From assembly GCF_009455635.1 (NCBI RefSeq), contig NZ_QPER01000002.1, positions 434,001-498,000 of the forward strand: a stretch of DNA of 64,000 bases. Reading direction: 5' to 3'. Position numbers and translations under genes: made by a program. Shown one piece after another: positions 18,517 through 60,033 of this stretch (its first letter is position 1; every line of letters starts with the position of its first letter). This stretch comes from Paraburkholderia agricolaris (GTDB taxonomy: Bacteria > Pseudomonadota > Gammaproteobacteria > Burkholderiales > Burkholderiaceae). Under the pieces are notes generated by a model. It made no database searches, was not told the origin of the DNA, and saw only the letters and a program-made list of their open reading frames with translations.

Positions 18517-18549
18517 GCTGACTCTCCAGTGGACTTTGCTCTGGAAAGT

Positions 18550-18578: not shown

Positions 18579-18588
18579 GTAAATTGAC
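18574..18588. promoter_or_regulatory. Candidate MarR operator GTCAAGTAAATTGAC
   Basis: A perfect inverted repeat, GTCAA/TTGAC with a 5-nt spacer, overlaps the -35 of the aryl-CoA operon promoter. Its size and AT-rich centre suit a MarR dimer, and the only MarR gene in the window is inside this operon. The link is inferred from position. Confidence 0.55.
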
Positions 18589-21770: not shown

Positions 21771-21817
21771 CGGGACGGACAAGCATGAGAATCCTGTCGA
21801 CTCTCAAGGAACCTGGT

Positions 21818-22801
21818 GTGAAAGAAAAAATCCTGATTACCCGCAAGGTGTTTCCGTCCGTGGTTGGGCGCCTCCGGGAGCATTTTGACGTCGAAATCAA
21901 CGATGCGGACCACATATATGCGCCGAAAGAATTACGCGTGCGTCTACAGGGCAAAGTCGGGGCACTCGTGAGCGCGACGGAAATAATCGACGCGCCACTT
22001 GTGCAGGATTGCTCAACGCTACGAGCCGTTGCCAATATTGCGGTCGGATACAACAATCTGGATCTGGCGGCGCTGTCGGCGGCTGGCGTCGTGGCGACCA
22101 ATACGCCGGACGTGCTGACTGAAACCACGGCCGATTTCGGCTGGGCGCTCCTCATGGCGACCGCGCGCCGCACAGGCGAAGCAGAGCGCTGGTTGAGGCT
22201 GGGTCTATGGGACAAATGGGCCCTTGACATGTTTCTCGGGGTGGACATTCATGGCACATCGCTGGGTATTCTCGGCATGGGTCGTATCGGGCGCGCGGTG
22301 GCGCAGCGGGCCCGCGGCTTCGGTATGACGGTGAGGTATCACGATCGCGGGCCTATCGCGTTGGCAGACGAAGGCGGTGCGCAGTTTTGCAGTAAGGAGG
22401 AACTGCTGGGCATGTCGGACCATCTGATCATCACGATGCCGTATGGCCCGGCAGCGCATCATACGATCGGGCAGCGTGAGCTTGCGTTGATGAAGCCGAC
22501 GGCCACACTCATCAACATCTCTCGTGGCGGTCTGGTCGACGAAGACGCGCTCGCCGATGCGCTAGCCGAGAACCGGCTGGCAGGAGCCGGCCTCGACGTA
22601 TTCGAACGAGAGCCCTTCGTCTGTCCGAGGTTGCTTGCCAACGCGAAGGTGGTCGCCACACCTCATATCGCGAGCGCAAGTCTGAAGACGCGCCTTGCGA
22701 TGGCCGATCTCGCCGCCGACAACCTGATCGCCGCCTTGGGGTACGGAGCGTGTGCCGGCCAGCCTCCGTCACCATTGAACCCGGAGGTGTTGCGCGGCTG
22801 A
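21818..22801 (+). CDS. D-isomer-specific 2-hydroxyacid dehydrogenase (glyoxylate/hydroxypyruvate reductase-like)
   Basis: A 327-residue NAD(P)-dependent enzyme. The Rossmann motif is GILGMGRIGRAVA; the catalytic Arg is in NISRGGLVDE, the Glu in DVFEREP and the His in ATPHIASAS. It interconverts 2-oxoacids and D-2-hydroxyacids. I prefer the GTG at 21818 (AAGGA 7 nt upstream, giving MKEKILITRKVFP as in relatives) over the ATG at 21785. It follows the AceE-type E1 by 47 nt, so both probably act on the same 2-oxoacid pool. Confidence 0.87.
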   Translation: MKEKILITRKVFPSVVGRLREHFDVEINDADHIYAPKELRVRLQGKVGALVSATEIIDAPLVQDCSTLRAVANIAVGYNNLDLAALSAAGVVATNTPDVLTETTADFGWALLMATARRTGEAERWLRLGLWDKWALDMFLGVDIHGTSLGILGMGRIGRAVAQRARGFGMTVRYHDRGPIALADEGGAQFCSKEELLGMSDHLIITMPYGPAAHHTIGQRELALMKPTATLINISRGGLVDEDALADALAENRLAGAGLDVFEREPFVCPRLLANAKVVATPHIASASLKTRLAMADLAADNLIAALGYGACAGQPPSPLNPEVLRG

Positions 22802-22892
22802 TTGAGGGCGGGCGTCCAACGGGTGCCCGGTGCTCCATGCGTTAGAATGCGTCACTGGAAACATCCAGACGGATCATTCGAGGACGGATCCT

Positions 22893-23528
22893 GTGGCGCA
22901 CACCGGGCAGACAAAAACGAAACGCTCGCGCTCCGAAGTGATGGACGCGATACGAAATGCAGCGATCGCGGAGTTCGCGCTGCATGGGCTGAAGGGGGCA
23001 TCGACCCAGGGCATCGCTGAGCGTGCAGGCTTATCGAAGCCACAACTCCATTACTACATCGAGAGTAAGGAAGACCTGTACGAAAAAATTCTTCAGCACG
23101 TGGTCGAGGAATGGACTCGTGTGTTTTCGTTTGGCGAAGTCGACCGCGGTCCCCAGCAGGTCCTGTCCGATTACATTCGCAAGAAGCTGGATTTCTCGTT
23201 CGACCAGCCGCTCCTGTCTCGTATCTTCGCCAACGAGATGATGCGTGGGGCACCCGTCTTAATGCCGATGATGAGCCGTCCACGCATGCGTACCGCTCAG
23301 GCGGTTGCATGCATCAATAGCTGGATCGAGGCGGGTCTCATGCGGCCACTCGATCCGATGCTCCTGATGATGAATATCTGGTCTCTGACCCAGCACTTTG
23401 CCGACTTTGAATTTCAGGCGCGCTACATGTTGCGCGTGAAAGAGGGGCAGCCGCTCGATCGCGAACACATCGTCGCGGAAGTGACCGCATTCGTCATGCA
23501 CGGTTGCGGCATCACACGCTCTGCGTAA
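22893..23528 (+). CDS. TetR family regulator, RutR-like
   Basis: A 211-residue regulator. The helix-turn-helix is TQGIAERAGLSKPQLHYYIE. The C-terminal half (LLSRIFANEMMRGAPVL, and LTQHFADFE) resembles the pyrimidine-sensing RutR C-terminal domain. The GTG at 22893 with GAGGA 7 nt upstream is chosen over an ATG-less extension to 22830. Downstream, 267 nt beyond its stop, lies a perfect RutR-type box (TTGACC...GGTCAA) on the promoter of the creatininase/ABC operon, making that operon its likely target. It may also influence the AceE pair upstream. Confidence 0.87.
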   Translation: MAHTGQTKTKRSRSEVMDAIRNAAIAEFALHGLKGASTQGIAERAGLSKPQLHYYIESKEDLYEKILQHVVEEWTRVFSFGEVDRGPQQVLSDYIRKKLDFSFDQPLLSRIFANEMMRGAPVLMPMMSRPRMRTAQAVACINSWIEAGLMRPLDPMLLMMNIWSLTQHFADFEFQARYMLRVKEGQPLDREHIVAEVTAFVMHGCGITRSA

Positions 23529-23794
23529 TACACCGCCGTTCCGATTCTTAGGGCGGCGTCACCTTTTCCCAACATCCCTCTTTCGTCGCTAGTCGACACA
23601 CGCCGCCGCCGATTTCCGCGGCGCGTCAATTCACCCTTTCACGTCTTCCCGCGAGTCACTTGCGCCCGCCGCGATTCTTCTGATGATTCAACGCGGCAGG
23701 ACTTGCTGCGCCGCACGATTATTTCATTTGGCATCCTACCCAAAAGACATTGCAGCCAAAAACAATGTCAACCGGAAAATAAATGACCATATGG

Positions 23795-23812
23795 TTTGAC
23801 CGATTGGTCAAA
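23795..23812. promoter_or_regulatory. RutR-type operator TTTGACCGATTGGTCAAA
   Basis: This is a perfect inverted repeat with 7-bp arms (TTTGACC/GGTCAAA) and a 4-nt spacer. Known RutR boxes have the form TTGACCAnnTGGTCAA. The site covers the -35 and spacer of the operon promoter. The RutR-like TetR gene ends 266 nt upstream. Motif and family agree independently, so the pairing is credible. Confidence 0.75.
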
Positions 23813-23823
23813 TCGTCTATCAT
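23796..23823 (+). promoter_or_regulatory. Promoter of the creatininase/ABC-importer operon
   Basis: -35 TTGACC (23796-23801) and -10 TATCAT (23818-23823) are 16 nt apart. The -35 is inside the palindrome at 23795-23812. The rest of the 23529-23932 gap shows no gene; it is an ordinary leader of about 100 nt before the creatininase start. Confidence 0.6.
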
Positions 23824-23932
23824 GATTTCGAAGCCAGTCGTTGCAGCACAGATCTGAGCCAGCGGGAGCCCTCGCTTCAACCGGCTCGCGAAACCAGGCA
23901 TTCGGTGAATGCCGAGAAAAGAGGAGCAGGAG

Positions 23933-24748
23933 ATGTCGTCGATCACCAAGCGTTTTTGGGCCGAATACACGAGCAAGGAGTTCTCCCGTCTTGACCGCGA
24001 GCGGCTGATCGCGGTGCTGCCGGTCGCCGCCATCGAGCAGCATGGGCCGCATCTGCCTATGTCTGTGGATACCACGACGATCGATGGACTCGTCGAAGCG
24101 ATCATTCCGCGTCTGTCCGGCGAGTTGCCGGTGGTGTTTCTGCCGACTCAAAGCATCGGCAAGAGCAATGAACACGCTCGCTATCCTGGCACCTTGACTT
24201 TTTCAGCCGAGACCTTGATTCGCATGTGGAGCGAGATCGGTGCCTGCGTCGCAGCGGCCGGCGTGAAGAAACTAGTGCTGTTCAACAGTCATGGCGGACA
24301 GGGGGCCGTGATGGATATCGTCGCGCGCGATCTGCGTCAACGTTTCGGGATGATGGTCGTCGCGTCGAACTGGTACACGCTCGGCATGCCCGACGCGCTC
24401 TTCAATGACGAGGAAATGAAACACGGGATCCACGCGGGCGACGTCGAAACGTCGATCCTGCTCGCCATGCGGCCGGAGCTTGTTGCGATGGACGAAGCGC
24501 GCCACTTCGTTTCGCTCACGAAGGAAATGAGCGAGCGCTACCGCTATCTGTCAATTGGCGCGAGCGGCAAGCTCGGATGGCAGACGCACGATCTGAATCC
24601 CGCCGGAGCCTGCGGCAACGCCGCGGCCGCGACCGCGGACAAAGGACGACGTGTGATCGATCACGTCGTCACCCAGTTTATCGAGTTGCTGCGTGAAGTC
24701 GACGACGCGCCGCTCGCATGGCTGGAAAACGAACCCGAGTGGCATTGA
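23933..24748 (+). CDS. Creatininase-family amidohydrolase
   Basis: A 271-residue member of the creatininase/FAPy-deformylase (ArfB) fold. Metal ligands are visible in AAIEQHGPHLPMSVDT (Glu, His, Asp), FNSHGGQ and HAGDVETS. Family reactions include opening of cyclic amides (creatinine), deformylation and peptide cleavage. The start at 23933 has GAGGAG 6 nt upstream; the ATG at 23909 is less likely. It is first in a plus-strand operon with a NitT/TauT-type importer, implying a small nitrogen-containing substrate. Confidence 0.85.
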   Translation: MSSITKRFWAEYTSKEFSRLDRERLIAVLPVAAIEQHGPHLPMSVDTTTIDGLVEAIIPRLSGELPVVFLPTQSIGKSNEHARYPGTLTFSAETLIRMWSEIGACVAAAGVKKLVLFNSHGGQGAVMDIVARDLRQRFGMMVVASNWYTLGMPDALFNDEEMKHGIHAGDVETSILLAMRPELVAMDEARHFVSLTKEMSERYRYLSIGASGKLGWQTHDLNPAGACGNAAAATADKGRRVIDHVVTQFIELLREVDDAPLAWLENEPEWH

Positions 24749-24788
24749 ACGGCTCTTTCAACTGATCGGTGACGGCATGGAGACAAGC

Positions 24789-25574
24789 ATGACGCAGGCC
24801 CCGTTAGTTCATCTAAGGGACGTACACAAAAAATATTCGAACGGCACGATCGCGCTTAACGGCATGTCGCTCGAGGTGGGAAGTCACGAATTTATCAGTT
24901 TTCTCGGACCGTCTGGCTGTGGCAAGAGCACGGCGCTGCGGATGATCGCGGGGCTGTCGTCGATCTCTGGCGGCACGATCGAATGGACCGCGAAAACCGG
25001 GATTGAAGATGCACGTACGCATGACATCAGCTTTGTTTTCCAGGAGCCAACGCTGATGCCCTGGTCGTCGGTATTTGAGAATGTCTACCTGCCTCTGAAG
25101 CTGCGAGGCGAATCGCGGGAGCGTGCACGTCCCAGGGTCGAGGAAGCGCTGGCAATGGTCGGACTGTCGCGTTTTGCGAATGTCTATCCGCGTGAACTGT
25201 CGGGCGGCATGAAGATGCGGGTCTCAATTGCGCGGGCGATGGTGACGCGTCCGCGTCTGCTGTTGATGGATGAGCCTTTCGCGGCTCTCGACGAAATGAC
25301 CCGCATCAAACTGAACAACGATTTGCTCAAGCTTTGGCAAGAGCACAAGTTCACAGTGATCTTTGTGACGCACAGCGTCTACGAGTCAGTCTATCTCTCG
25401 AATCGCGTGGTGGTGATGGCAAGTCGACCGGGGCGTGTGATCGACGAGATCGCTATTCCGGCGCCCTATCCGCGTGGTGAAGCGTATCGCGAATCAGCGC
25501 AGTACACACAGTTATGCCGCGAAACGTCGACTAGCCTGCACCGGGCGATGGACTCGTCCGACATCGATCATTGA
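24789..25574 (+). CDS. ABC transporter ATP-binding protein (NitT/TauT family)
   Basis: A 261-residue ATPase: Walker A GPSGCGKST, signature LSGGMKMRVS, Walker B LLLMDEPFAALDE and an H-loop His in FVTHSV. It resembles SsuB/TauB/ThiZ-type proteins that energise uptake of sulfonates, nitrate or pyrimidine precursors. The ATG at 24789 has GGAG 6 nt upstream. The permease starts 17 nt downstream and the binding protein is three genes on. Confidence 0.9.
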   Translation: MTQAPLVHLRDVHKKYSNGTIALNGMSLEVGSHEFISFLGPSGCGKSTALRMIAGLSSISGGTIEWTAKTGIEDARTHDISFVFQEPTLMPWSSVFENVYLPLKLRGESRERARPRVEEALAMVGLSRFANVYPRELSGGMKMRVSIARAMVTRPRLLLMDEPFAALDEMTRIKLNNDLLKLWQEHKFTVIFVTHSVYESVYLSNRVVVMASRPGRVIDEIAIPAPYPRGEAYRESAQYTQLCRETSTSLHRAMDSSDIDH

Positions 25575-25591
25575 ATGAGAGAGGAATCGGT

Positions 25592-26458
25592 ATGTCTTCT
25601 TCAGTACAAACCTTGAAGGTGGACGTCTCGTCCAATGCGACCGCAATCGCGGATGCAGCCAGGCAGCGCGTACGGCGCGAACGCTTCCTGCGCTGCGCGG
25701 TGCCGACCGCCTGGTTGCTTGCCGCAGTGCTGCTCTGGGAAATCCTGGTGCGTGTGAATCACGTGCCTGATTACATCATTCCGGCACCGAGTGTGATTTT
25801 GCGCACACTGATTGAGAACTGGGGTTCATTGTCGTTGTCGCTGCTGTTCACATTGAAGCTGACCTTCATGTCGCTTGCGCTTGCGATTGTGGGGGGCGTT
25901 GCACTGGCCATGTTGTTCGCGCTCTCGCGTTGGGTTGAGCTTAGCTTCTTTCCGTTTGCAGTCATCTTGCAGGTCACACCTGTCATTGCGATCGCGCCTC
26001 TGATTCTGATCTACGTCGACAGTACATTTTCCGCGCTGTTGATTTGTGCATGGATCGTCGCCTTTTTCCCGATCCTGTCGAACACCGTTATCGGTCTCCG
26101 AAGCGCCGACCACAATCTGCGTGACTTATTCGGGCTGTACCGGGCGACACCGTGGCAGCGTCTGCGCTATCTGCTTGCTCCGAGTGCGCTGCCGTACTTC
26201 CTGGGCGGCTTGAAGATCGCCGGTGGTCTCTCGCTCGTCGGCGCCATCGTGGCCGAGTTCACGGCAGGCGCGGCTGGCCGTCAAACGGGTTTGGCGTCGC
26301 GCATCCTGGAAGCGACGTTTAGAAACGAGATCCCGAAGATGTTTGCCGCTCTCCTGCTTGTCTCGCTGTGCGGCATCAGTATCTTTTTGCTCTTCAATTG
26401 GCTTTCCAAGGCGGTGCTTAGAGGCTGGCACGAGAGCGAAATCGATCGTGACGCATGA
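25592..26458 (+). CDS. ABC transporter permease (NitT/TauT family)
   Basis: A 288-residue inner-membrane permease with about six transmembrane segments. The EAA-like loop lies around GLYRATPWQRLRYLLAPSAL. The ATG at 25592 has AGAGGA 7 nt upstream. Its stop overlaps an ATG at 26455 by ATGA. Together with the ATPase (24789) and binding protein (27905) it forms one importer. Confidence 0.9.
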   Translation: MSSSVQTLKVDVSSNATAIADAARQRVRRERFLRCAVPTAWLLAAVLLWEILVRVNHVPDYIIPAPSVILRTLIENWGSLSLSLLFTLKLTFMSLALAIVGGVALAMLFALSRWVELSFFPFAVILQVTPVIAIAPLILIYVDSTFSALLICAWIVAFFPILSNTVIGLRSADHNLRDLFGLYRATPWQRLRYLLAPSALPYFLGGLKIAGGLSLVGAIVAEFTAGAAGRQTGLASRILEATFRNEIPKMFAALLLVSLCGISIFLLFNWLSKAVLRGWHESEIDRDA

Positions 26459-26493
26459 AGCAGAACCGACATTCGGCATCAAGGATAGAAGAT

Positions 26494-27852
26494 ATGAACA
26501 ACAGAGACATTGATTGGGTCCGGTTTGCCGGTGAGTTGAATGGAATCCGGACGATCGCAAGCGGAGGCCAATTGCGTGGGCGATCACGTGATTTCTCGTG
26601 GTATAGCCCAATTCTCAATGCGCAATTGAAGGACTGCGTTGCAGATCTGGTTGTCTTTCCGCGTAATGAAGAGGAGGTAATCCGCATCGCGGCGGCGGTG
26701 TCGCGCCGGGGGGTGCCCCTAACCATACGCGGCGGCGGCACCGGCAACTATGGCCAGTGCGTGCCGCTGCAGGGTGGCGTCGTGATGGACATGACGGAAC
26801 TGAAAGCAGTGCGGGAGATTCGGCCCGGTTCGGTACGCGTTGAGGCGGGTGCGCGGATCGGTGAATTGCAGGAAGCGGTCAGGGCATCCGGCCAGGACCT
26901 GCTGATGTTTCCCTCCACATTGCGCGTCGCGACAATAGGAGGGTTCATTGCAGGCGGCTATGCCGGTGTCGGTTCCATCCGGCATGGCATTCTCAAGGAC
27001 ACGGACAACGTCCGCTGCATTCGTGTCGTTACTGTGGAGGAGATACCGCGCGTTGTCGAACTGCGTGGTGCCGATATTCAGAAGGTGCATCACGCGTTCG
27101 GCACGAACGGCATCATCACCGAGCTCGAACTGACACTGAAGCCGGCGCTCGACTGGTTGCACACGATCACGCTATTCGAGCATTACGGCGATGCATTGCG
27201 CTTCTGCAAGGCGGCCAGCACGCCGGAACTCGATCTGTTTCTGCTGACGTCGGTGGAGAAGGGTTTCGCACCGTTTTATGAACACCTGGGCGAACGCTTT
27301 CCGGACGACCGTAACGCTGTGTTTGCGATGGTCAGCCCGGCATCGATCGATCAGTACCGTAGCTTGGCGACCTCCCATGGTGGGATGGAATCGCTCAGCA
27401 TGAATGCGGATGAACTCGAAGCGAGCGAACTTCCGCCTGCGTATGAATGCGCGTACAACCATACGACGCTGCAGGCTCTGAAGATCGACAAGCAGTGGAC
27501 CTATCTTCAGATTGCTCATCCGCAACCGTTCGACGTTGAGCTTTGCGAGCAACTCGCGCAGCGATTCGGTGACGAAATTTACTGGCACCACGAGTTTGCG
27601 AAGCAGTTCGGCGAGTACCAGGTGTTCGGCATTCCGTTGGTACGTTTTACCACCGCCGAGCGTCAGTACGAAATCATGCGCATCTTCGAATCACTCGGCT
27701 GTGCAACCTTCGACCCTCATGTCGTCACGATTGAGGACGGCGGTATGAAAGAAATCGATCTGTCGCAAATCGACTTCAAGCGGCAGGCGGATCCGAAAGG
27801 CTTGCTTAATCCCGGAAAGATGCGCGGCTGGGAGACGGTCGTGGCCGAATAG
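26494..27852 (+). CDS. FAD-binding oxidoreductase (GlcD/PCMH type)
   Basis: A 452-residue flavoprotein with a PCMH/FAD_binding_4 domain. The FAD-binding strand is RGGGTGNYGQ, followed by VVMDMTELKAV; there is a typical PHVVTIEDGG near the C-terminus. Relatives oxidise hydroxyacids such as glycolate or D-lactate, or sugar lactones and heterocyclic alcohols. An ATG at 26455 overlaps the permease stop; I prefer the ATG at 26494 with AAGGA 8 nt upstream. Its position between the permease and the binding protein shows that it belongs to the transported substrate's pathway. Confidence 0.83.
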   Translation: MNNRDIDWVRFAGELNGIRTIASGGQLRGRSRDFSWYSPILNAQLKDCVADLVVFPRNEEEVIRIAAAVSRRGVPLTIRGGGTGNYGQCVPLQGGVVMDMTELKAVREIRPGSVRVEAGARIGELQEAVRASGQDLLMFPSTLRVATIGGFIAGGYAGVGSIRHGILKDTDNVRCIRVVTVEEIPRVVELRGADIQKVHHAFGTNGIITELELTLKPALDWLHTITLFEHYGDALRFCKAASTPELDLFLLTSVEKGFAPFYEHLGERFPDDRNAVFAMVSPASIDQYRSLATSHGGMESLSMNADELEASELPPAYECAYNHTTLQALKIDKQWTYLQIAHPQPFDVELCEQLAQRFGDEIYWHHEFAKQFGEYQVFGIPLVRFTTAERQYEIMRIFESLGCATFDPHVVTIEDGGMKEIDLSQIDFKRQADPKGLLNPGKMRGWETVVAE

Positions 27853-27904
27853 GGAATCGAGCGTCGACAACGTTTTCGTGATCCTACGATATGGAGCAGA
27901 ACCC

Positions 27905-28963
27905 ATGAAAAATATTGTACGGGCAGTTCTATTTGCCGCCGGACTTGCCGCGACCGCACTCATGGCGTGCGGGCCGACTTGCGCCTCAGCCGAGGACAAA
28001 GTGATCCTTGGCACCGACTGGAAAGCTCAGGCTGGTCACGGCGGCTTTTACCAGGCACTCGCCGACGGAACCTACAAGAAGTATGGGCTCGATGTCGAGA
28101 TTCGAGAAGGCGGTCCACAGGTGAACAACCGTCCCATGCTGTCCGCCGGCAAGATCGATTTTCTGATTGCCGGAAATTTGCTGCTGTCTTTTGACAATGT
28201 GAAGAACCATGTTCCGACGGTGGTGGTGGCGGCCGTCAATCAGAAGGATCCGCAAGCGTTGATGGCGCATGAAGGGGCCGGATTTAACACGTTCGCCGAC
28301 TTGAAGAAAGCCAAGGTCATTCTGGTTTCGAAAGACGGGCAATTCAGCTTCTGGCAATGGATGGTTGCGGAAAAGGGCTTTAAGGACGAGCAATTGCGTC
28401 CTTACAACTACAGCATCGCGCAGTTTCTCGCGGAACCAGGCGCGGTGCAGCAGGCGTACGCGACAGCGGAACCACTTTACGCCGAAAATGCGGGCGTCAA
28501 GACACGTACATTCCTGCTGGCCGACGAGGGCTGGAATACCTACTCGTCGACGATCGAAACACGTTGGGACATGGTGAAGAACAAGCCCGACGTCGTGCGC
28601 CGCTTCATCGATGCGTCGATTATCGGTTGGTACAACTTTCTCTACGGGGACCACAGCGGCGCTTACGGGCTGATCGAAAAAGAGAATCCCGAAATGACCC
28701 AGGCGAAGCTCGATGCGGAGGTCGCGAAGATCCGACAGCTTGGACTGATCGATTCCGGCGATGCGTTGACGAAGGGTATCGGAGCAATCGATACCGATCG
28801 CGTGAAGAGTTTCTACGACAAGATGGTCAAGGCTGGTCTCTACAAAGCGCAGGACGTCGACATCAGTAAGGTCGCAACTAACCAGTTTGTCGACAAAGGA
28901 GTCGGTCTGGATTTGCGCAAGAAACTGGTCGGTCAAAGCGTTGCTTCGGCAAACGCGCGCTAA
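27905..28963 (+). CDS. ABC transporter substrate-binding protein (SsuA/THI5-like)
   Basis: A 352-residue periplasmic binding protein. The signal peptide covers about residues 1-30, with a probable cleavage after CASA; a Cys at about residue 22 (LMAC) resembles a poor lipobox. The mature protein shows the NMT1/THI5-like pattern (LGTDWKAQAGHGGFYQAL, KYGLDVEIREGG). This subgroup binds sulfonates, nitrate or pyrimidine/HMP-type compounds. GGAG lies 8 nt before the ATG at 27905. It completes the importer with the genes at 24789 and 25592. Confidence 0.88.
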   Translation: MKNIVRAVLFAAGLAATALMACGPTCASAEDKVILGTDWKAQAGHGGFYQALADGTYKKYGLDVEIREGGPQVNNRPMLSAGKIDFLIAGNLLLSFDNVKNHVPTVVVAAVNQKDPQALMAHEGAGFNTFADLKKAKVILVSKDGQFSFWQWMVAEKGFKDEQLRPYNYSIAQFLAEPGAVQQAYATAEPLYAENAGVKTRTFLLADEGWNTYSSTIETRWDMVKNKPDVVRRFIDASIIGWYNFLYGDHSGAYGLIEKENPEMTQAKLDAEVAKIRQLGLIDSGDALTKGIGAIDTDRVKSFYDKMVKAGLYKAQDVDISKVATNQFVDKGVGLDLRKKLVGQSVASANAR

Positions 28964-28976
28964 CGGAGAAAGACGT

Positions 28977-29426
28977 ATGAGTTCGACAATTGCAAAGCCG
29001 CTTGCAAAGTATGCGCCGTACAAGCGCAAAGGCAACCTCATCTTTCTGTCCGGCATCATCGCTGTCGATCCTGAAGCAGGGAAGATCGTACAGGGCTACG
29101 GCGACGTTCCTCACGACGTGCGTGAAAAGATCGGAAAGACCGGGGAGTTCTCCGTCGATATCAAGGAGGGTCAGATTCGGGCGCAGTCCTGGTATGTGCT
29201 CGACCGTATTCGCGCGACGATCGAATCGGCAGGCGGCAGCATGGCTGATGTATTCAAGCTTGTGCAGTATTTTCGCGACCTTCGTGACTACCCGAGCTAC
29301 AACCGGATCCGGGGGATGTTCTTTGATGGCGATCCTCCGGTGTCCACGGTGGTGCAGGTGTCGGCCATGCTGCCGGACGAGTCGATTCTGGTCGAGGTCG
29401 AAGCTACTGCGTGGCTGCCGGAATAA
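28977..29426 (+). CDS. Rid-family protein (YjgF-like), no catalytic Arg
   Basis: A 149-residue Rid protein beginning MSSTIAKPLAKYAPYKRKGN with the C-terminal signature LVEVEATAWLPE. As in the Rid gene at 11905, the position of the RidA imine-hydrolase arginine is not Arg (VSAMLPDES). Rid proteins of this kind occur in catabolic operons for heterocycles and amino compounds, where some may act as hydrolases. The start at 28977 has GGAG 9 nt upstream; it follows the binding protein by 13 nt. Confidence 0.85.
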   Translation: MSSTIAKPLAKYAPYKRKGNLIFLSGIIAVDPEAGKIVQGYGDVPHDVREKIGKTGEFSVDIKEGQIRAQSWYVLDRIRATIESAGGSMADVFKLVQYFRDLRDYPSYNRIRGMFFDGDPPVSTVVQVSAMLPDESILVEVEATAWLPE

Positions 29427-29437
29427 TGGAGGCAAGG

Positions 29438-30385
29438 ATGGAGAGCACCCTGCAGGTACGAGTCGCGGAAGTGATCGAAGAGACCGCCGAAATACGTCGT
29501 TTTGAACTCGTGGCAGAAGGAGGCGGGGAGCTCCCCGCCTTCGAGGCAGGCGCACATATCGACGTGTATGCGGGCAGCACAGGCATTCGGCAGTATTCGT
29601 TATGCAGTGCGCCATGGGAGCGGCACCGTTACGTAATCGGCGTAAAGCGTGAACCGCAAAGCCGCGGCGGCTCGGTGTGGATGCATGACACAGTGCGGCC
29701 GGGCGCATCGATGACGATCGGGATTCCCCGCAATAACTTTGCGCTTGAGACAGCAGCGGACAGACATCTGCTCTTTGGAGCCGGTATTGGAATTACCCCA
29801 TTGCTTGCAATGGCGGAAACCCTCGCGCGAAATGATGCCGAATTCACGCTTTACTACTTCGCTCGCTCGGCTGCGCACCAGGCGTTCAAGACGCGCCTGG
29901 CGGGATCGCCGTGGGCTTCCAGAGTGCGCTATCAGTTAGACGACGGCGGCCCGACTATCGACCTCGCCGCGGAACTGGCGGCGGCGTCTCCAGCAACGCA
30001 TCTGTATATGTGCGGTCCGCAAGGTTTCATGGATGCGGTCAGGCGAGCTGCTTCGTCATGGCCGGACGAGAATGTCCATCTGGAATACTTTGCCGCGGAG
30101 CCCGTCGAGCATGTGGACGGGGACCAGCCGTTCGAGATTGAACTGGCCCGTAGTGGCGAGAGATTCCACATTGGCCGAGACGAAACGATTGCGCAGGTTC
30201 TGCTCGATGCCGGCGTCGATATCATGACGTCCTGCGAGCAAGGCGTATGCGGCACCTGCGTGACGACTTATCTCGACGGTGAGCCGGAACACCGTGATTT
30301 TTGTCTGAACAGGCGAGAACGCGAGACCAGGGTTGCACTTTGCTGCGCTCGCGCGAAGACGGCCACGCTGGTGCTAGACCTGTGA
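29438..30385 (+). CDS. Oxygenase reductase component (PDR/VanB type: FMN, NAD, plant-type 2Fe-2S)
   Basis: A 315-residue single-chain reductase. The FMN/NAD domains include RQYSLCSAPWE and FGAGIGITPLLAM. The C-terminal [2Fe-2S] ferredoxin cysteines are in SCEQGVCGTC and, further on, in DFCL. Such proteins pass electrons from NADH to a Rieske oxygenase (VanA, PobA-type demethylases). No Rieske oxygenase gene is present in this window, which is odd. GGAGG lies 5 nt before the ATG at 29438, 11 nt after the Rid gene. Confidence 0.88.
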   Translation: MESTLQVRVAEVIEETAEIRRFELVAEGGGELPAFEAGAHIDVYAGSTGIRQYSLCSAPWERHRYVIGVKREPQSRGGSVWMHDTVRPGASMTIGIPRNNFALETAADRHLLFGAGIGITPLLAMAETLARNDAEFTLYYFARSAAHQAFKTRLAGSPWASRVRYQLDDGGPTIDLAAELAAASPATHLYMCGPQGFMDAVRRAASSWPDENVHLEYFAAEPVEHVDGDQPFEIELARSGERFHIGRDETIAQVLLDAGVDIMTSCEQGVCGTCVTTYLDGEPEHRDFCLNRRERETRVALCCARAKTATLVLDL

Positions 30386-30427
30386 CGCGTCAGAAGCCAT
30401 TGCGTTGAAGGGCTAAGCGGCGCTGAA

Positions 30428-30449
30428 ACGATAGCATTCTGGTTATCGT
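30428..30449. terminator. Weak hairpin after the reductase gene
   Basis: The arms ACGATA and TATCGT are separated by 10 nt, and T-rich sequence (TGTCTCTTATAG) follows. The stem is short, so it is at most an inefficient terminator or attenuator between the reductase and the porin. Confidence 0.25.
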
Positions 30450-30558
30450 GTCTCTTATAGAAATCTGGTTTTATTAATAAATTTAGGATTACTTTTTGTA
30501 GTGATCTGTAGTCTGAATTTTTGTCTGTCAGTGTTGGATGATGAATGCAATAAAGAGT

Positions 30559-30575
30559 GCGTTGCATCGCAACGC
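30559..30575. promoter_or_regulatory. Perfect palindrome in the porin leader
   Basis: GCGTTGC and GCAACGC are perfect 7-bp arms around ATC, ending 32 nt before the porin ATG. The surrounding 30450-30560 is strikingly AT-rich, suggesting a local promoter. The palindrome could be an operator (LacI/GntR-like) or an RNA hairpin near the ribosome site. Confidence 0.45.
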
Positions 30576-30607
30576 TAGCCAAACAAAATGTTGAGTCAGG
30601 GACTAAC

Positions 30608-32017
30608 ATGAAGGCTTATGCACCACGCGCCGTCTGCTGTCGAATCGGCTTGCAGATAACGCTATCGGGGATCTTGGGGTTGCCACTTTCTGTTTTAGCA
30701 CAGACGGCGGATGTAACCGTTCCCGCTTCAGGTGTGGATTTCGCAGAGCAAAAGGGACAGGACACTGTCGAGCATGCTGCCGCTGCCGCCGCTTCTCAGG
30801 CCACGCCTCCCAGTCATGGGGATGCGGCGAATCTCGTAGAGATGTTCACGAAGGGTCAGTTCTTTGGCGATATCAGAACAATCTATTTCTCGTCGCACAA
30901 TGCTTTCTACCAGTCCGGACTGAATCAGAATACCGCTAGCTATGGCGGCGGAATCGGCTACAAGACCGCTAACTTCTACGGATTTTCCTTGGGTGTTAGC
31001 GGCTACATCCAACGCGGCATTGATCACTCGGATGATCCGACGAAAGTCGATAGCTATCTTGGACCCAACATTACGGCGTTGGGTATGGCCTACCTGAGGT
31101 GGGAGCATAAGGATTTCAGCGTGACCGCGGGTAATCAGGAGTTGGACGTTCCGTTCGCATCGACGTATGACTGGCGGATGGCCCCGCAATTGTTTCAGGG
31201 CGTGACGGCAAAGTACGGGGACGCGGACAACTACGTCACCGCTTTCCGGATGTTTCGATTCAAATCCTATATCGACAACTCGTTCACCAGGCAGACTACC
31301 TATAACGCCAACATTGACCCGTACTCTCCCGTTGGCAATCAGGAGACCAACGGATTCTATGGCATAGGAGGTGTTCGCACAGTTCCGCTGGATCCCATAG
31401 CGCTTAAAGGTCAGGCGTGGTACATGGGCTATCTGGACTACGCCCGCATGACGTATCTGGAGGGGCAGGTGAACCTTACGCAAGGTGCGATCCAGCCCTT
31501 CGCAGCTGCCCAGTTCTTTTATGAAACCGGTGACGGCAAACAGTTACTTGGCCCGATCAACAGTCAGGTGTACGGCGTACAGCTTGGACTCAAGCGCAAC
31601 TCGCTGTTGCTTAGTTTCGGGTACGACTACATCAAACCTCATGGCGGCTCCTATCTCAATGGTGCACTCGTGACGCCTTACGCGCACTACGTTGCATCGG
31701 GTCCACTGTTTGCCCAGCCGTTCTTATCCAGTACACAGGATCTTGGCGCGGGGAGTGCTTTCGCGATCGACCTGAACGGTGCGCCGACTTCCAACCTGTT
31801 TGTTGGTTTTCGATATTCCTTCATGGACCTGAAGAACAGTCCGGGTGCGGCGAGTCTGGACCAGTCGGAGTATCTCGTCTACGCGATCTACTCGCTCGGC
31901 GGCAAGTTCAAGGGTTTCAGCATAGCGGACTTTCTTGCCTATGATAGTTCGCCGACCTACAAGAGCAAATTCGTTCAGAACCGGTTGACACTTCAATATG
32001 CCTGGGGACCACAGTAA
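30608..32017 (+). CDS. OprD-family outer-membrane porin
   Basis: A 469-residue protein with a signal peptide (cleavage near SVLAQ, about residue 32) and a long run of amphipathic beta strands typical of OprD-like substrate-specific porins (GQFFGDIRTIYFSSHNAF, NFYGFSLGVSGY, FVGFRYSFMDLKNS). The last residues, LQYAWGPQ, end in Gln rather than the usual aromatic residue. It would admit the operon's substrate across the outer membrane. AGGGA lies 6-7 nt before the ATG at 30608. The amidohydrolase follows by 19 nt. Confidence 0.82.
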   Translation: MKAYAPRAVCCRIGLQITLSGILGLPLSVLAQTADVTVPASGVDFAEQKGQDTVEHAAAAAASQATPPSHGDAANLVEMFTKGQFFGDIRTIYFSSHNAFYQSGLNQNTASYGGGIGYKTANFYGFSLGVSGYIQRGIDHSDDPTKVDSYLGPNITALGMAYLRWEHKDFSVTAGNQELDVPFASTYDWRMAPQLFQGVTAKYGDADNYVTAFRMFRFKSYIDNSFTRQTTYNANIDPYSPVGNQETNGFYGIGGVRTVPLDPIALKGQAWYMGYLDYARMTYLEGQVNLTQGAIQPFAAAQFFYETGDGKQLLGPINSQVYGVQLGLKRNSLLLSFGYDYIKPHGGSYLNGALVTPYAHYVASGPLFAQPFLSSTQDLGAGSAFAIDLNGAPTSNLFVGFRYSFMDLKNSPGAASLDQSEYLVYAIYSLGGKFKGFSIADFLAYDSSPTYKSKFVQNRLTLQYAWGPQ

Positions 32018-32036
32018 GGTTCCCGGGGGAAATACC

Positions 32037-33353
32037 ATGATCTCGCGCGAACTGGAAACGTTGAATCAGGCGGGTGCCCACGACGGCTACTGGATCTGCA
32101 ACGCTAGCGTGCCGCAAGCGTTGATCCACGAAACGGCATCGGCCCATCGCGAGAAGAATCCGTCGCAGCCTGTGCCGGTCGCACTTAAGCTGCGTGGCGA
32201 CCGGATCGAACGAATCGTGCCCGAAGCGGTCGATGACGGTTCTCCCTGCTTCAATCTGGACGGCGGCCTGCTTTTGTCAGGATGGGTGGACGCGCACACG
32301 CATCTCGACAAAGGCCATATCTCACCGCGTGCCGGTGTCAGCGGCGGCGGGTTACTTGCCGCGATCGAGGCTACCCGGGGTGACTTACGGCACTGGACAC
32401 ATGATGACCTTGAAAGGCGGATGTCGTTTTCATTGCGCAGTGCGCTGGCCTATGGAACGCGCGCTATGCGCACGCATATCGATTGGGAGCAGTCCGCGAC
32501 GCCATTAGCGTGGGATGTCGCGCAGGGGTTGCGCCAGGAATGGGCAGGCCGCATCGATCTGCAATGCGCGGCCTTGCTTCCTCTTGAGATGTTTGGTGAC
32601 GTTCAGACGGCTGAACACGTCGCACGCACTATCGCCGGCGGCGGGGTACTCGGCGCGTTTGTCTATCCGATGGCGAGGCAGCGCGAGTATATCGAGCATA
32701 TGTTCTCGCTAGCCGAGCGTTTCGATTTGTGGCTCGACTTTCACGTCGATGAACACCTCGAAACGAATGTGGAGGGCATCAGATCGATTCTCGATGCGGC
32801 GCGACGCCGGCAGATGGGAGGCCGCGTGCTGTGCGGACATTGTTGCGCGTTAGCGGTAGCACCTCTCGACATCACTCGCGACGTACTGGCGGATTTTGCG
32901 AGCCTGGGCGCGACTGTGGTGAGTCTGCCATTCACGAATCTTTATCTGCAGGACAGGCGAGCTGGCGTCTCGCCGCGGCTACGCGGCATTTTTCCGCTGC
33001 TCGAGGCTGCGGAGGCGGGCGTGCGAGTCGCGCTGGCGTCGGACAATCACCGTGACCCGTTCCTGCCGTTTGGCGATCTCGATCCGTTGCAGACGTTGAC
33101 GCTCGCGTCGTTTGCTGCGCATCTGGCCCAGCCGTTGGAGTGTTGGAGTTCGACTGTGACGACGACGCCAGCCACGGCGCTGAACCTGCCATGGGACGGC
33201 GTATTGCGTGAAGGCGGCCCGGCTGATTTTGTACTGCTGCATGCGCGTGATAGCACGGAGGCCTGCTCGCGTTGGCAAGCTGACCGGATGGTGGTGCGCG
33301 GTGGACGCTTTATCGATACCCGCTTGCCGGACTACCGGGAACTGGATTCTTGA
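32037..33353 (+). CDS. CodA-like metal-dependent amidohydrolase
   Basis: A 438-residue amidohydrolase of the cytosine-deaminase subgroup. Metal ligands appear in WVDAHTHLDKGH, FHVDEHLE and CGHCCALA, and the Asp in ALASDNHRDPF. The DxHxHLDK and HVDE signatures are those of cytosine/isoguanine deaminase and related N-heterocycle hydrolases. GGGGGA lies 8 nt before the ATG at 32037. With the creatininase-family hydrolase, the RutR-like control and the importer, it suggests that the operon degrades an N-heterocycle or cyclic amide. Confidence 0.85.
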   Translation: MISRELETLNQAGAHDGYWICNASVPQALIHETASAHREKNPSQPVPVALKLRGDRIERIVPEAVDDGSPCFNLDGGLLLSGWVDAHTHLDKGHISPRAGVSGGGLLAAIEATRGDLRHWTHDDLERRMSFSLRSALAYGTRAMRTHIDWEQSATPLAWDVAQGLRQEWAGRIDLQCAALLPLEMFGDVQTAEHVARTIAGGGVLGAFVYPMARQREYIEHMFSLAERFDLWLDFHVDEHLETNVEGIRSILDAARRRQMGGRVLCGHCCALAVAPLDITRDVLADFASLGATVVSLPFTNLYLQDRRAGVSPRLRGIFPLLEAAEAGVRVALASDNHRDPFLPFGDLDPLQTLTLASFAAHLAQPLECWSSTVTTTPATALNLPWDGVLREGGPADFVLLHARDSTEACSRWQADRMVVRGGRFIDTRLPDYRELDS

Positions 33354-33429
33354 TATGCGCCAGCGGGAACCGTGGCAAGCAGTTGAAGCGATAAGCCACG
33401 CTAAATAAAATTCAGGAGACGAAGGCGAC

Positions 33430-34620
33430 ATGCAAAATATCACCAACATCGAAGATCTGCGGCAGGTGGCAAGACGCAAGATACCGCGCGCCATATTCGA
33501 CTACGTCGATGGAGGTTCATATGACGAGCGCACACTGCACGGCAACCGCGCGGACCTTGAGTCGATAAAGTTGCGCCAGCGCGTGATGGTGGACGTATCG
33601 AAGCGCTCGCTCTCGACAACGATTCTCGGCCAACCCGCCGCGCTGCCACTGGCAATCGCACCAACGGGTTTGACGGGGCTGGTGCGAGGCGACGGTGAGA
33701 TTCTGGCCGCACGCGCTGCGCTTGCCGCAGGCATTCCATTTTGCTTGAGCACGATGTCGATCTGTTCACTGGAAGATGTCCGTGCCGCGGTTGACCGACC
33801 ATTCTGGTTTCAACTGTACGTGATGCGTGATCGCGGTTTTAGTCAATCATTGATCGAGCGAGCCCGTGCAGCACACTGTTCCGCCTTGGTATTGACCGTC
33901 GATTTGCAGATTCAGGGACAGCGGCACCGGGATATAAAAAATGGGTTATCCGTTCCGCCTCGACTCACGCCGGCCAATGCACTCGACATCGCGATGAAAC
34001 CCGGCTGGGTGCAGCGCGTGCTATGCGGAAAGCGCAAAACGTTCGGCAATCTTGCCGGACACGTGCCGGGTTCGAACAATCTGAACACCGTGTCGCAATG
34101 GATCGCGGGTCAGTTCGATCCGTCGCTCAGTTGGCGAGACGTCGAATGGGTGCGCAAGCTGTGGCCCGGCAAGCTGATTCTCAAGGGCGTTCTCGATCCT
34201 GTCGATGCAAAACTGGCGACCGAAGTGGGTGCCGACGCGATCGTCGTATCGAACCACGGTGGACGCCAACTGGACGGTGCGCCGTCTTCAATTGAAGCGC
34301 TCCCCGCCATTGCCGAGCGCGTGGGCGAACAGTGTGAAATTCTATTTGACGGCGGTGTTCGTTCGGGACAGGACATTCTGAAGGCGCTTGCTTCAGGCGC
34401 TCATGCCTGCCTGACGGGCCGGGCTTTTCTGTACGGTCTCGGCGCGTTCGGTGAAGCGGGGGTGATGCGCGTGCTCGATATCTTGCGAAGCGAGCTTGAT
34501 GTCAGCATGGCATTGAGCGGTTCCACCGACGTTCGCAACGTTTCGCGCGACATTATCTGGTCGGCGGCAGCACGCGCTCTAAACAGAATCGAGCCAGCTC
34601 CCGATGCTGTCGAAGCGTGA
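33430..34620 (+). CDS. FMN-dependent alpha-hydroxyacid oxidase/dehydrogenase (LldD family)
   Basis: A 396-residue FMN TIM-barrel protein. The active-site signature is SNHGGRQLDG, and FMN/phosphate contacts are in FDGGVRSGQD. Relatives oxidise L-lactate, glycolate, mandelate or 2-hydroxy acids to 2-oxoacids. It follows the amidohydrolase by 76 nt and precedes ilvD by 24 nt, so it probably handles a hydroxyacid released late in the pathway. GGAG is in the leader. Confidence 0.87.
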   Translation: MQNITNIEDLRQVARRKIPRAIFDYVDGGSYDERTLHGNRADLESIKLRQRVMVDVSKRSLSTTILGQPAALPLAIAPTGLTGLVRGDGEILAARAALAAGIPFCLSTMSICSLEDVRAAVDRPFWFQLYVMRDRGFSQSLIERARAAHCSALVLTVDLQIQGQRHRDIKNGLSVPPRLTPANALDIAMKPGWVQRVLCGKRKTFGNLAGHVPGSNNLNTVSQWIAGQFDPSLSWRDVEWVRKLWPGKLILKGVLDPVDAKLATEVGADAIVVSNHGGRQLDGAPSSIEALPAIAERVGEQCEILFDGGVRSGQDILKALASGAHACLTGRAFLYGLGAFGEAGVMRVLDILRSELDVSMALSGSTDVRNVSRDIIWSAAARALNRIEPAPDAVEA

Positions 34621-34644
34621 GATTAGCTAACCTAAGGAAATGCT

Positions 34645-36318
34645 ATGCAATACAACCGTCGTTCGAAGAACATCACGCAAGGCGTGGCACGCTCCCCGAA
34701 CCGCTCGATGTACTACGCACTCGGCTATCAGAAGGACGACTTCGACAAGCCGATGATCGGCATCGCCAACGGTCACTCGACCATCACGCCATGCAACGCC
34801 GGCCTGCAGCGTCTGGCCGACGCGGCGGTGGCCGCAGTCAAGGGTGCCGACGCGAATCCACAGATCTTCGGCACGCCGACGATCTCGGACGGCATGTCGA
34901 TGGGCACCGAAGGCATGAAGTACTCGCTGGTATCGCGCGAAGTGATTGCCGACTGCATCGAGACGTGCGTGCAGGGGCAATGGATGGACGGCTTGGTCGT
35001 GATCGGCGGCTGCGACAAGAACATGCCCGGCGGCATGCTCGGCATGTTGCGCACCAACGTGCCGAGCATCTACGTGTATGGCGGCACGATCCGTCCGGGC
35101 AACTGGAAGGGCACCGACCTGACCATCGTGTCGTCGTTCGAAGCGGTGGGCGAATTCACCGCCGGCCGGATGTCACAGGAAGATTTTGAAGGGATCGAGA
35201 AGAATGCGTGCCCGTCCACGGGTTCGTGCGGCGGCATGTACACCGCCAACACGATGAGCTCGTCGTTCGAAGCGCTGGGCATGTCGCTGCTGTATTCGTC
35301 GACGATGGCCAACCCCGACCAGGAAAAGGTCGATTCGGCCGCCGAATCGGCGCGCGTGCTGGTCGAAGCGGTCAGGAAGGACCTGAAGCCGCGCGACATC
35401 GTCACGAAGAAGTCGATCGAAAACGCCGTGGCCGTGCTGATGGCAACGGGCGGCTCGACCAACGCGGTGCTGCATTTCCTCGCCATCGCGCATGCGGCCG
35501 AAGTGGAATGGACCATCGAAGACTTCGAGCGCATGCGCAAGAAAGTGCCGGTGATCTGCAACCTGAAGCCGTCGGGCCAGTTCGTCGCGACGGATCTGCA
35601 TAAGGCGGGCGGCATTCCGCAAGTCATGAAGATTCTGCTCGACGCAGGTCTGCTGCACGGCGATTGCCTCACGATCACCGGCAGGACGATCGCCGAAGAA
35701 CTGAAGGACGTGCCGGGCAAGCCGCGTGCCGATCAGCAGGTGATCTTCCCGATCGAGCAGGCGCTGTACAAGGAAGGCCACCTCGCCATCCTCAAGGGCA
35801 ATCTGGCCGTTGACGGCGCAGTCGCCAAGATCACCGGCCTGAAGAACCCTGTCATTACCGGCCCAGCCCGCGTATTCGACGACGAGCAAAGTGCACTGGA
35901 AGCCATTCTGGCCGACAAAATCGTCGCCGGCGACGTGGTCGTCCTGCGCTACCTCGGGCCGAAGGGTGGCCCCGGCATGCCGGAAATGCTCGCGCCGACC
36001 TCGGCGATCATCGGCAAGGGGCTCGGCGAAAGCGTCGGCCTGATTACCGACGGCCGTTTCTCAGGTGCGACGTGGGGCATGGTGGTCGGTCACGTCGCGC
36101 CGGAAGCGTTCGTGGGCGGCACGATCGCGTTCGTGCAGGAAGGTGACTCGATCACGATCGACGCGCACAAGCTGCTCCTGCAACTGAATATCGACGACGC
36201 CGAACTGGAACGCCGCCGCGCCGCCTGGCAACAGCCGAAGCCACGCCATATACGAGGCGTGCTGGCCAAATTTGCGGCGCTGGCAACGCCAGCCGACAAG
36301 GGCGCAACGACCGGTTAA
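34645..36318 (+). CDS. ilvD: Dihydroxy-acid dehydratase
   Basis: A 557-residue Fe-S dehydratase. Cluster and active-site cysteines are in [17 protein letters not shown] and [14 protein letters not shown]; the C-terminal GRFSGATWG is conserved. It normally makes 2-oxoisovalerate and related oxoacids for branched-chain amino acids and pantothenate. Codon use is more biased (GAA/CTG/CCG) than in neighbouring genes, as expected of a highly expressed housekeeping-type gene. Whether it serves biosynthesis or the upstream catabolic operon (an IlvD/Edd-like sugar-acid dehydratase) is open; sequence favours true IlvD. AAGGAA precedes the ATG. Confidence 0.92.
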
Positions 36319-36339
36319 TGTCTTTGCGATGAGCCTGGG

Positions 36340-36367
36340 GTTCCGTGGTGAGTCTTTGCCACGGAAC
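36340..36367. terminator. Hairpin after ilvD
   Basis: GTTCCGTGG (36340-36348) and CCACGGAAC (36359-36367) form a perfect 9-bp stem with a 10-nt loop, 21 nt beyond the ilvD stop. There is no U-run, so this is a structured 3' end rather than a classical intrinsic terminator. Confidence 0.45.
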
Positions 36368-36446
36368 ACGGGCACGATTGATCGCAGCGCGACTCGTGGC
36401 ATGTGTCGAGCGCGTCGATGAACGCGCTGTATTGAGGAGGTGAGCG

Positions 36447-36926
36447 ATGGCGAAACATGAACTGGATGAAATCGACGTCAGAATTCTCGAGGAACTACAG
36501 CATGACGGTTGTATAACGAACGTCGAACTTGCATCGCGCGTCAACCTGTCGCCGTCACCCTGTCTCGCGCGCGTGAGGTCGCTCGAATCGCGCGGCATCA
36601 TAAAGCAACGTGTCACGTTACTAGGCGCGGAGCAGCTTGGACTCAACGTGAACGTATTCATCCAGATTTCGCTCGACAAACAGGTGCGCGACGCCCTCGA
36701 CACGTTCGAACGTGCCATTCGAGGTCTACCCAACGTCATGGAGTGTTACCTGATGTCCGGTGACGCGGACTATCTCATTCGCGTCCTCGTCCGTGACGTT
36801 CATGCGCTCGAGCGGCTCATCGTGGACCAATTGACGCGCATCCCCGCTGTGTCGAATATCCGCTCAAGCTTCGCGCTGAAACAGGTGATGTATAGCACCG
36901 CACTACCCGTCACGTCCGTGCGGTAA
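36447..36926 (+). CDS. Lrp/AsnC family regulator
   Basis: A 159-residue Lrp-type protein. The N-terminal helix-turn-helix is [20 protein letters not shown] and the C-terminal RAM ligand domain is seen around [27 protein letters not shown] is an unusually strong ribosome site. It lies downstream of ilvD on the same strand and may sense an amino acid or oxoacid and control the ilvD/hydroxyacid oxidase genes. Confidence 0.88.
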
Positions 36927-37062
36927 GGTCTGTTGCATCGTGGCGTGCGGCGCATGCTCTGACGAATCGCCCGTTTTGGCACGCTGATGCTGCTCATAAG
37001 GCGGGGGATTCACAGTTCGTGATTGATCCGCGCGAAGTGGGCCACGATAAAACAGGTCGTGA

Positions 37063-37527
37063 TCAGCGAGATCGGTCGCCGGCGGAACTCGCGCGGCAAC
37101 TTCAATTTGTCGCGTCACTGACCCGCACGCAACGACGCCGTTCGCCATCGACTACCAGGCGATCCTGGGCATCGGCGCGTCTTACACACTCGGTAACCTG
37201 ATCATGGCCGGCGATTTTAGCGACACGACGTTCCACGGGTTTGGCCGCTCGTCGTCGATGAAAGTCTTCGAACCCGGTGTGCGATATCAGATGACGCCGT
37301 CGCTTTCGTTTGTTTCAGCCTATCGGTACACCATGTTCGAGGGACACCATTGGCATGAGGTCGCACTGGCGACACATTATCTGCTGTCGAAGCGGACCGA
37401 ACTCTATACGTCGGTCGACTGGATGCGTGCGTCGGAAGGTGTGGATGCGGTGATCGGCTACAGCTTTACGCCGTCGACTACGCGCAATCAGACGGCTGTT
37501 CGGGCGGCAATACGCCACGTCTGGTAG
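37063..37527 (+). pseudogene. C-terminal remnant of a Gram-negative porin
   Basis: The open frame from the in-frame stop at 37060 reads through AIDYQAILGIGASYTLGN and on to YLLSKRTELYTSVDWMRAS and NQTAVRAAIRHVW. This is the characteristic C-terminal third of Burkholderia-type trimeric porins, ending in an aromatic residue. The signal peptide and N-terminal two thirds are missing, and there is no ribosome site at the internal ATG (37204). It is a truncated, probably dead gene; the preceding ~130 nt contain nothing recognisable. Confidence 0.65.
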
Positions 37528-60005: not shown

Positions 60006-60033
60006 GATGTTCCTGATGATTGGATGTTGGGAT

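Follow-up and report, generated by a model that had tools for sequence, protein, structure and literature searches.

Which compound is taken up and broken down by the operon that follows a perfect TTTGACC-GATT-GGTCAAA palindrome in Paraburkholderia agricolaris? The operon lies in a stretch of 64,000 nucleotides, here called the window (positions 434,001 to 498,000 of contig NZ_QPER01000002.1), within a genome of 8.7 Mb and two contigs. An original prediction made from the window alone named an importer, a creatininase-family hydrolase, a flavin adenine dinucleotide (FAD) enzyme, a Rid protein, a reductase, a porin, a CodA-like amidohydrolase and a hydroxyacid oxidase. All of these genes are present, and as far as gene families tell they support its proposal that an N-heterocycle is imported, oxidised and ring-opened. 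The compound, which that prediction left unnamed, can now be narrowed down. The operon probably imports and catabolises pterins, the folate-family pteridines, under a TetR repressor. The sequence and fold of the FAD enzyme, its conserved gene context and a published enzyme of Variovorax (PMC9513972, available in part) point to this family of compounds.

The FAD enzyme and its partners

The FAD-binding-4 flavoenzyme (26494–27852) is homologous over its whole length to PDB entry 6v42, with 41% identity and the same fold. The title of that entry describes a 'flavin oxygenase ... involved in folate catabolism'. The reductase encoded in the cluster varies between loci and is of the VanB type, of the flavin mononucleotide (FMN)-reductase type, of both, or a small 2Fe-2S protein. 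This varying partner suggests that electrons are supplied to the FAD enzyme by a separate protein, which would be expected of an oxygenase. The window encodes a VanB/phthalate dioxygenase reductase-type protein (29438–30385; 2pia at 7.3e-70, PF00111).

The operon that follows the palindrome runs on the + strand throughout, with intergenic gaps of 11 to 76 bases at the chosen starts and about 220 bases before the porin gene. Its first product is the creatininase-family metallohydrolase (23933–24748), a member of the PF02633 superfamily (234.9 bits, cut-off 31.3) although it falls under the creatininase equivalog cut-off (92.3 of 235 bits). The chosen ATG stands after AGGAGCAGGAG, and a longer start at 23909 is possible. 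The ATPase (24777–25574, PF00005) and permease (25592–26458, PF00528) of an ATP-binding cassette (ABC) importer follow, and an NMT1/THI5-like substrate-binding protein (27905–28963; PF09084, 87.8 bits) is encoded after the FAD enzyme. Its structure prediction was poor, with a mean predicted local distance difference test (pLDDT) value of 47, so no ligand class was inferred. The OprD-like outer-membrane porin (30608–32017) matches PF03573 weakly, at 26 bits against 25, and is conserved in loci L001–L003.

Between the binding protein and the reductase lies the gene for the Rid-family protein (28977–29426, PF01042). PDB entry 3lyb, a solved 'putative endoribonuclease', scores 193 bits against it, and the sequence of 3lyb looks the same as that of the Klebsiella cluster Rid protein (L061), so that gene context may give 3lyb a role.

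The CodA-like amidohydrolase

The proposed pterin deaminase of the window (32037–33353) passes the NCBIfam 'cytosine deaminase' model PRK07583 with 414 bits against a cut-off of 403. Aligned with a solved cytosine deaminase, it retains the positions that we take to bind metal and to act in catalysis.

The available part of PMC9513972 describes a pterin deaminase of 399 amino acids from Variovorax sp. F1, for which folic and pteroic acid are substrates. According to the same text, this enzyme and its relatives share 36–37% identity with the Agrobacterium pterin deaminase Arad3529, and 'endoribonuclease' genes lie downstream of the pterin deaminase gene in V. paradoxus (PMC9513972). The cluster amidohydrolase of Variovorax YR216 (L091) is 396 amino acids long from its likely start, has a Rid gene directly downstream and is 35–38% identical to the amidohydrolases of L028, L066, L098 and L103. 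Its relatives (E ≤1e-90) occur in 45 of 61 Variovorax genomes, its own included. In 12 short loci around the Variovorax amidohydrolase, the Rid gene comes next in 11 (L109 is without it), and the 11 amidohydrolase lengths given all fall within 395–400 amino acids. Rid is likewise found in 15 of 18 longer Variovorax loci, and in 12 of these 18 an FAD-enzyme arm with binding protein, VanB and TetR genes adjoins the deaminase.

The window and YR216 amidohydrolases both have the Lys of HxH[LI]DK and the DN motif, positions at which the more distant cytosine-deaminase-like sequences of L093 and L096 have other residues. A survey of 32 sequences, picked by motif from 40 sources of which eight gave none, found the Lys after HxHxD in 30 and the DN motif in 29. 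Because the picking pattern itself requires HxHxD and HxDE-like motifs, only these two features are informative. By motifs, identities and gene order, the window enzyme can be placed in one subfamily with the cluster deaminases of Variovorax and Rhizobium, and its gene shares an operon with that of the FAD enzyme.

Conserved gene context

The FAD enzyme (E ≤1e-80) is found in 32 of 398 sampled genomes of Pseudomonadota, the source genome included. Out of 35 non-self matches, 29 loci were examined. The amidohydrolase lies within about 1.5 kb in 23 of them, and every one of the 29 includes one core gene or more. The core gene set recurs in alpha-, beta- and gammaproteobacteria. Rhizobium and Agrobacterium carry a creatininase-family gene, LysR, binding-protein and ABC genes, a 'cytosine deaminase', the FAD enzyme, an FMN reductase and Rid, and Pantoea carries LysR, VanB, amidohydrolase, Rid, creatininase-family, binding-protein, ABC and FAD-enzyme genes. 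Rearranged clusters are also present in Klebsiella, Nitratireductor, Roseobacters and one Roseateles record. Within Paraburkholderia the FAD enzyme occurs in only 2 of 117 genomes, again counting the source genome, so the cluster is an accessory trait in this genus. Among the relatives compared, the closest is Paraburkholderia polaris, at 95% by the creatininase-family gene. The two protein searches scored only the 8000 candidates that shared most words, and they served solely to supply names.

Some clusters have further genes at their side. In Ruegeria sp. TM1040 (L062, 7223–12276) a dioxygenase of the TauD type occurs together with a glutamine-amidotransferase-like gene and without a flavin reductase match; TauD is present in L102 and L106 too. 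Genes resembling those of xanthine dehydrogenase (paoABC) are found close to the Rhizobium/Agrobacterium clusters of L028 and L063, and their products could hydroxylate pterins.

The palindrome and the TetR protein

The palindrome TTTGACCGATTGGTCAAA is exact at 23795–23812, as originally predicted, and is present in a single exact copy across the genome. It is also the sole match in the window at up to three mismatches. Since about 1.58 such matches are expected there by chance, it is the exactness of the palindrome that carries weight and not the loose pattern. At up to two mismatches the genome holds 15 palindrome-like sites against 26 for a reversed control pattern, and this lack of an excess means that the looser sites are not to be taken as a regulon. 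A sigma-70-like promoter, TTGACC-16-TATCAT (23796–23823, + strand, 10 of 12 bases), overlaps the palindrome and is the best of three promoter-like sites in 22700–36700, although shuffled sequence would give more of them (5.1).

A TetR gene of the YcdC/RutR type (22830–23528, + strand) does precede the operon, as the original prediction held, but it lies outside the range 23795–36318 that was given for it. Its product has a YcdC-type C-terminal domain (TetR_C_3, 120.9 bits) and falls under the RutR equivalog cut-off (149 of 368 bits). Three TetR_C_3 proteins are encoded in the genome, and the best of them (182.8 bits) is not the window protein. Its gene, on the other contig (C1), adjoins an M20 amidohydrolase, a dihydropyrimidine dehydrogenase pair, a cytosine/purine-type permease and a further amidohydrolase, and a different palindrome, CCTGTCCAACTGGACAGG, was spotted nearby by eye. 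The window TetR gene is not beside rut or pyrimidine-degradation genes; the RutR-type gene next to those is the one on C1. The window TetR protein is thus most likely a paralogue of RutR, as judged from these scores and neighbours, and the earlier label of 'RutR box' for the palindrome was misleading.

The palindrome is kept in several lineages. In an unbiased scan of loci L001–L028, 8 of 12 TetR-type loci had it, with up to three mismatches, no more than about 300 bases ahead of the creatininase gene (L001, L002, L003, L005, L007, L008, L009 and L023, of which L008 and L023 are near-identical). The TetR gene of these loci lies either upstream or downstream of the operon. Over all loci assembled for this count, 31 sites with up to two mismatches were found in 1.59 million positions, the operators themselves included. 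A pairing of the TetR protein with this palindrome is plausible.

A proposed pathway for pterin breakdown

In the pathway that we infer, including its substrate, the order of its reactions, the chemistry after deamination and the binding and inducer of the TetR protein, pterins would enter through the porin and the NMT1-type ABC importer. The CodA-like amidohydrolase would deaminate the 2-amino-4-oxo-pyrimidine half, converting pterin to lumazine, and the FAD enzyme would oxygenate the pyrazine half with electrons from the VanB-type reductase. The resulting lactam would be hydrolysed by the creatininase-family enzyme, much as creatininase opens creatinine, and the Rid protein would hydrolyse the remaining imine or enamine. 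The side chain would leave as a 2-oxoacid or hydroxyacid to be handled by the GhrB-like dehydrogenase, the hydroxyacid oxidase, IlvD and the 2-oxoacid dehydrogenase E1. The TetR protein would repress the operon by way of the palindrome that covers the −35 element. An older biochemical route, through tetrahydroxypteridine and xanthine-8-carboxylate, may apply instead. Most cells make pterins and folates.

If this pathway is true, the remaining genes of pterin breakdown, its importer and its switch are named in plant-associated and marine proteobacteria, and the labels 'cytosine deaminase' and 'creatininase' become a testable pathway. It would also offer a reason for the tetronate genes found beside the cluster.

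A link to tetronate genes

The joining of the cluster to genes for threonate and erythronate is new in this analysis. OtnI adjoins the deaminase gene in 16 of the 18 longer Variovorax loci (all but L136 and L137), a count from which L104, probably the genome of L133, was left out. These 16 loci all contain LtnD; OtnK and OtnC are present in 13, E1 in 13 and DenD in 5. The short loci have OtnI in 11 of 12. Proteins of L091 pass the NCBIfam models for 2-oxo-tetronate isomerase, 3-oxo-tetronate kinase and L-threonate dehydrogenase, and its decarboxylase falls slightly under the cut-off (217.7 of 250 bits). In L091 (8.8–17.6 kb) and L121–L135, tetronate genes, often with E1, form one run with the deaminase. 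A counterpart of the window E1 gene accompanies the cluster in 13 of the 18 longer loci, at 62–65% identity.

Separately from Variovorax, tetronate genes are joined to the cluster in loci of Mesorhizobium, Aminobacter and Nitratireductor. An independent arrangement is seen in L007, L008/L023 and L009, where LtnD and DenD are divergent from the creatininase gene with the palindrome between them; L007 and L009 additionally carry OtnK, OtnC and OtnI. Ten control loci that have a creatininase homologue without the cluster (L013–L022) contain no tetronate gene. L027 has a different acid-sugar kinase, and L103 has two LtnD-like genes.

This link connects the genes for the pterin ring with C4 sugar acids in part of the lineages and, as a matter of gene context, suggests that pterins with sugar-like, polyhydroxyalkyl side chains are degraded there. 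It is a more doubtful proposition that polyhydroxyalkyl pterins (neopterin, monapterin, biopterin and relatives) are the natural substrates of the TetR-type cluster as a whole, with both halves mineralised. Deamination, oxygenation at C7, opening of the lactam and hydrolysis of the imine would then yield a diaminouracil and a side-chain 2-oxoacid, which for neopterin would be a five-carbon 2-ketopentonate. E1 would decarboxylate this acid to a C4 unit, and the L-threonate or D-erythronate so formed would be turned into dihydroxyacetone phosphate by LtnD/DenD, OtnI, OtnK and OtnC. For the window, the proposal is that the GhrB-like dehydrogenase, the hydroxyacid oxidase, IlvD and E1 would replace the C4 branch. 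Against such substrates stands the lack of tetronate genes in the examined stretches of the window and of L001, L002, L003, L005 and L024–L026, as well as in the Rhizobium and Pantoea types. The one OtnK of the source genome over cut-off lies outside the window at C2:1199166, at a distance of about 0.73 Mb on the same contig.

Alternative explanations

Several observations weigh against pterins as the substrate and the palindrome as the switch. The folate connection of 6v42 comes from the title of that entry alone. The match between the Variovorax cluster genes and the published pterin deaminase (PMC9513972, available in part) is indirect, being one of length, identity values and gene order. 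The window amidohydrolase is only 42% identical to that of Variovorax YR216, a second Variovorax paralogue (L092) falls in the same subfamily, and 6 of the 18 longer Variovorax loci are without the FAD-enzyme arm in the stretch examined. In the window Rid protein, which has a PPVST motif, and in all eight other aligned cluster Rid proteins, Ser stands where RutC, 2-aminomuconate deaminase and two further Rid proteins have the Arg of the PAR motif. This Arg has a catalytic role in RidA, and the predicted effect of its replacement by Ser argues against canonical imine hydrolysis. The palindrome is not found within three mismatches in L024–L027, four of the 12 TetR-type loci, which keep only its left half in an alignment placed by eye after the scan had missed them and therefore not counted as conservation. 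Among the 12 Variovorax loci with the FAD-enzyme arm, only L091 and L121 have it with up to two mismatches; of the other ten, seven are without it, the creatininase gene of L122 is outside the stretch, and L129 and L131 offer only about 225 upstream bases.

Could the ring be another one? The operon might degrade a different cyclic guanidine or amidine, such as creatinine, an isocytosine-like or hydantoin-like compound or oxidised guanine, its likeness to folate enzymes reflecting shared families only. The CodA-like and creatininase families include such substrates, the amidohydrolase carries an NCBIfam 'cytosine deaminase' name over that model's cut-off, and the Rid and TetR proteins resemble Rut components. 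This is unlikely given the similarity of the FAD enzyme to 6v42 over its whole length, the linkage with the Variovorax deaminase, the far too low creatininase equivalog score (92 of 235 bits) and deaminase motifs unlike those of the two cytosine-deaminase-like sequences. A variant operon for uracil, thymine or cytosine under a true RutR is more improbable by far, even though a RutR-like TetR, a RutC-like Rid, a CodA-like gene and a RutR-like palindrome would suit it. None of 18 RutA matches in the genome is over cut-off, the window TetR scores 149 of 368 bits with the RutR model, and the better TetR_C_3 match stands beside the dihydropyrimidine dehydrogenase pair on C1 with a palindrome of its own. 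These facts together indicate that the operon is neither Rut nor a standard pyrimidine route, and the original view that its gene set fits no standard pyrimidine, purine or creatinine pathway holds: the reductive pyrimidine pathway is elsewhere, beside another RutR-type gene. The Rut, creatinine and purine readings were set aside on this evidence. The pyrimidine of thiamine, riboflavin, homarine, lactams and other candidates had been early guesses and were dropped once 6v42 was identified.

Among pterins, the ring substrate may be 6-hydroxymethyl- or 6-carboxypterin left by side-chain cleavage of folic acid, a possibility held tentatively, at less than even confidence. Folate is named in the title of 6v42, the Variovorax enzyme deaminates folic and pteroic acid in the available text of PMC9513972, and GhrB would suit the hydroxypyruvate expected from a hydroxymethyl side chain. 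Domain scans of the operon, on the other hand, revealed no carboxypeptidase G-type or aminobenzoate gene, and a one-carbon side chain leaves the tetronate genes of the sister clusters unexplained.

Comparison with known systems

A search of open-licence papers found PMC9513972 alone to bear directly on the operon or pathway. The folic acid route of Variovorax sp. F1 (pterin deaminase and carboxypeptidase G) and Arad3529 of Agrobacterium radiobacter, as described in the available part of PMC9513972, share with the present cluster a CodA-like deaminase, an adjacent Rid gene in Variovorax and an origin in soil or rhizosphere proteobacteria. In that text the F1 route ends at deaminopteroic acid, whereas the window deaminase is encoded in an operon with an importer, a flavin enzyme, a reductase, a creatininase-family enzyme and a TetR protein. 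The cluster is most likely a set of partly known enzymes in a regulated operon wider than the literature, as far as it was available, describes.

The flavin oxygenase of entries 6v42 and 6v43, despite its whole-length homology to the window FAD enzyme, is nearer the Rhizobium type of cluster, where LysR and an FMN reductase are found; a VanB-type reductase and TetR take their place in the window.

The Rut pathway of Escherichia coli, whose components have known roles, is alike in outline, with a TetR repressor, an importer, a flavin enzyme with a separate reductase, a hydrolase and a Rid protein. It differs in its RutA, in place of which the window has a flavin enzyme with a D-lactate dehydrogenase-like FAD fold, and in its regulator, since the window TetR is not RutR by model. 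A partly RutA-like protein (152.7 bits, cut-off 498) is encoded at 58902–60086 of the window, far from the operon. The tetronate pathway of LtnD/DenD, OtnI, OtnK and OtnC, which handles L-threonate and D-erythronate, is linked to the cluster in Variovorax and in some Rhizobiales and is absent from the window.

Neighbouring genes

Directly upstream of the palindrome and operon, the genes for E1, the GhrB-like protein and TetR form one contiguous unit on the + strand (19059–23528). The first encodes an AceE-like 2-oxoacid dehydrogenase E1 (19059–21770; TIGR03186, 1541.9 bits, cut-off 1408.3) and the second a D-2-hydroxyacid dehydrogenase of the glyoxylate/hydroxypyruvate reductase type (21785–22801; PF02826, PF00389), whose top NCBIfam models, glyoxylate reductase and GhrB, both score under cut-off. 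The operon closes with an LldD-type FMN-dependent L-2-hydroxyacid oxidase/dehydrogenase (33430–34620; PF01070, 466.6 bits; PRK11197, 457 bits, cut-off 376) and the dihydroxy-acid dehydratase IlvD (34645–36318; TIGR00110, 736 bits), which the original gene list did not name. A second copy of IlvD, 97% identical, lies on the other contig at C1:3744369, and the copy at the operon end is perhaps a recent within-genome duplicate.

An Lrp-family regulator follows (36447–36926, + strand, PF01037), and several Variovorax loci likewise have an Lrp gene next to E1. Rfam gave nothing over threshold in 18500–37500. Further downstream, a piece of 107 amino acids (37204–37527) is probably a remnant, its likeness to a Gram-negative porin (20.5 bits, under cut-off) being confined to the C-terminal part. 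An FAH/FAD monooxygenase is also encoded downstream in the window. On the other side, 16144–18516 encodes a 790-amino-acid fusion of an FAD-binding-3 monooxygenase domain and an old-yellow-enzyme-type domain.

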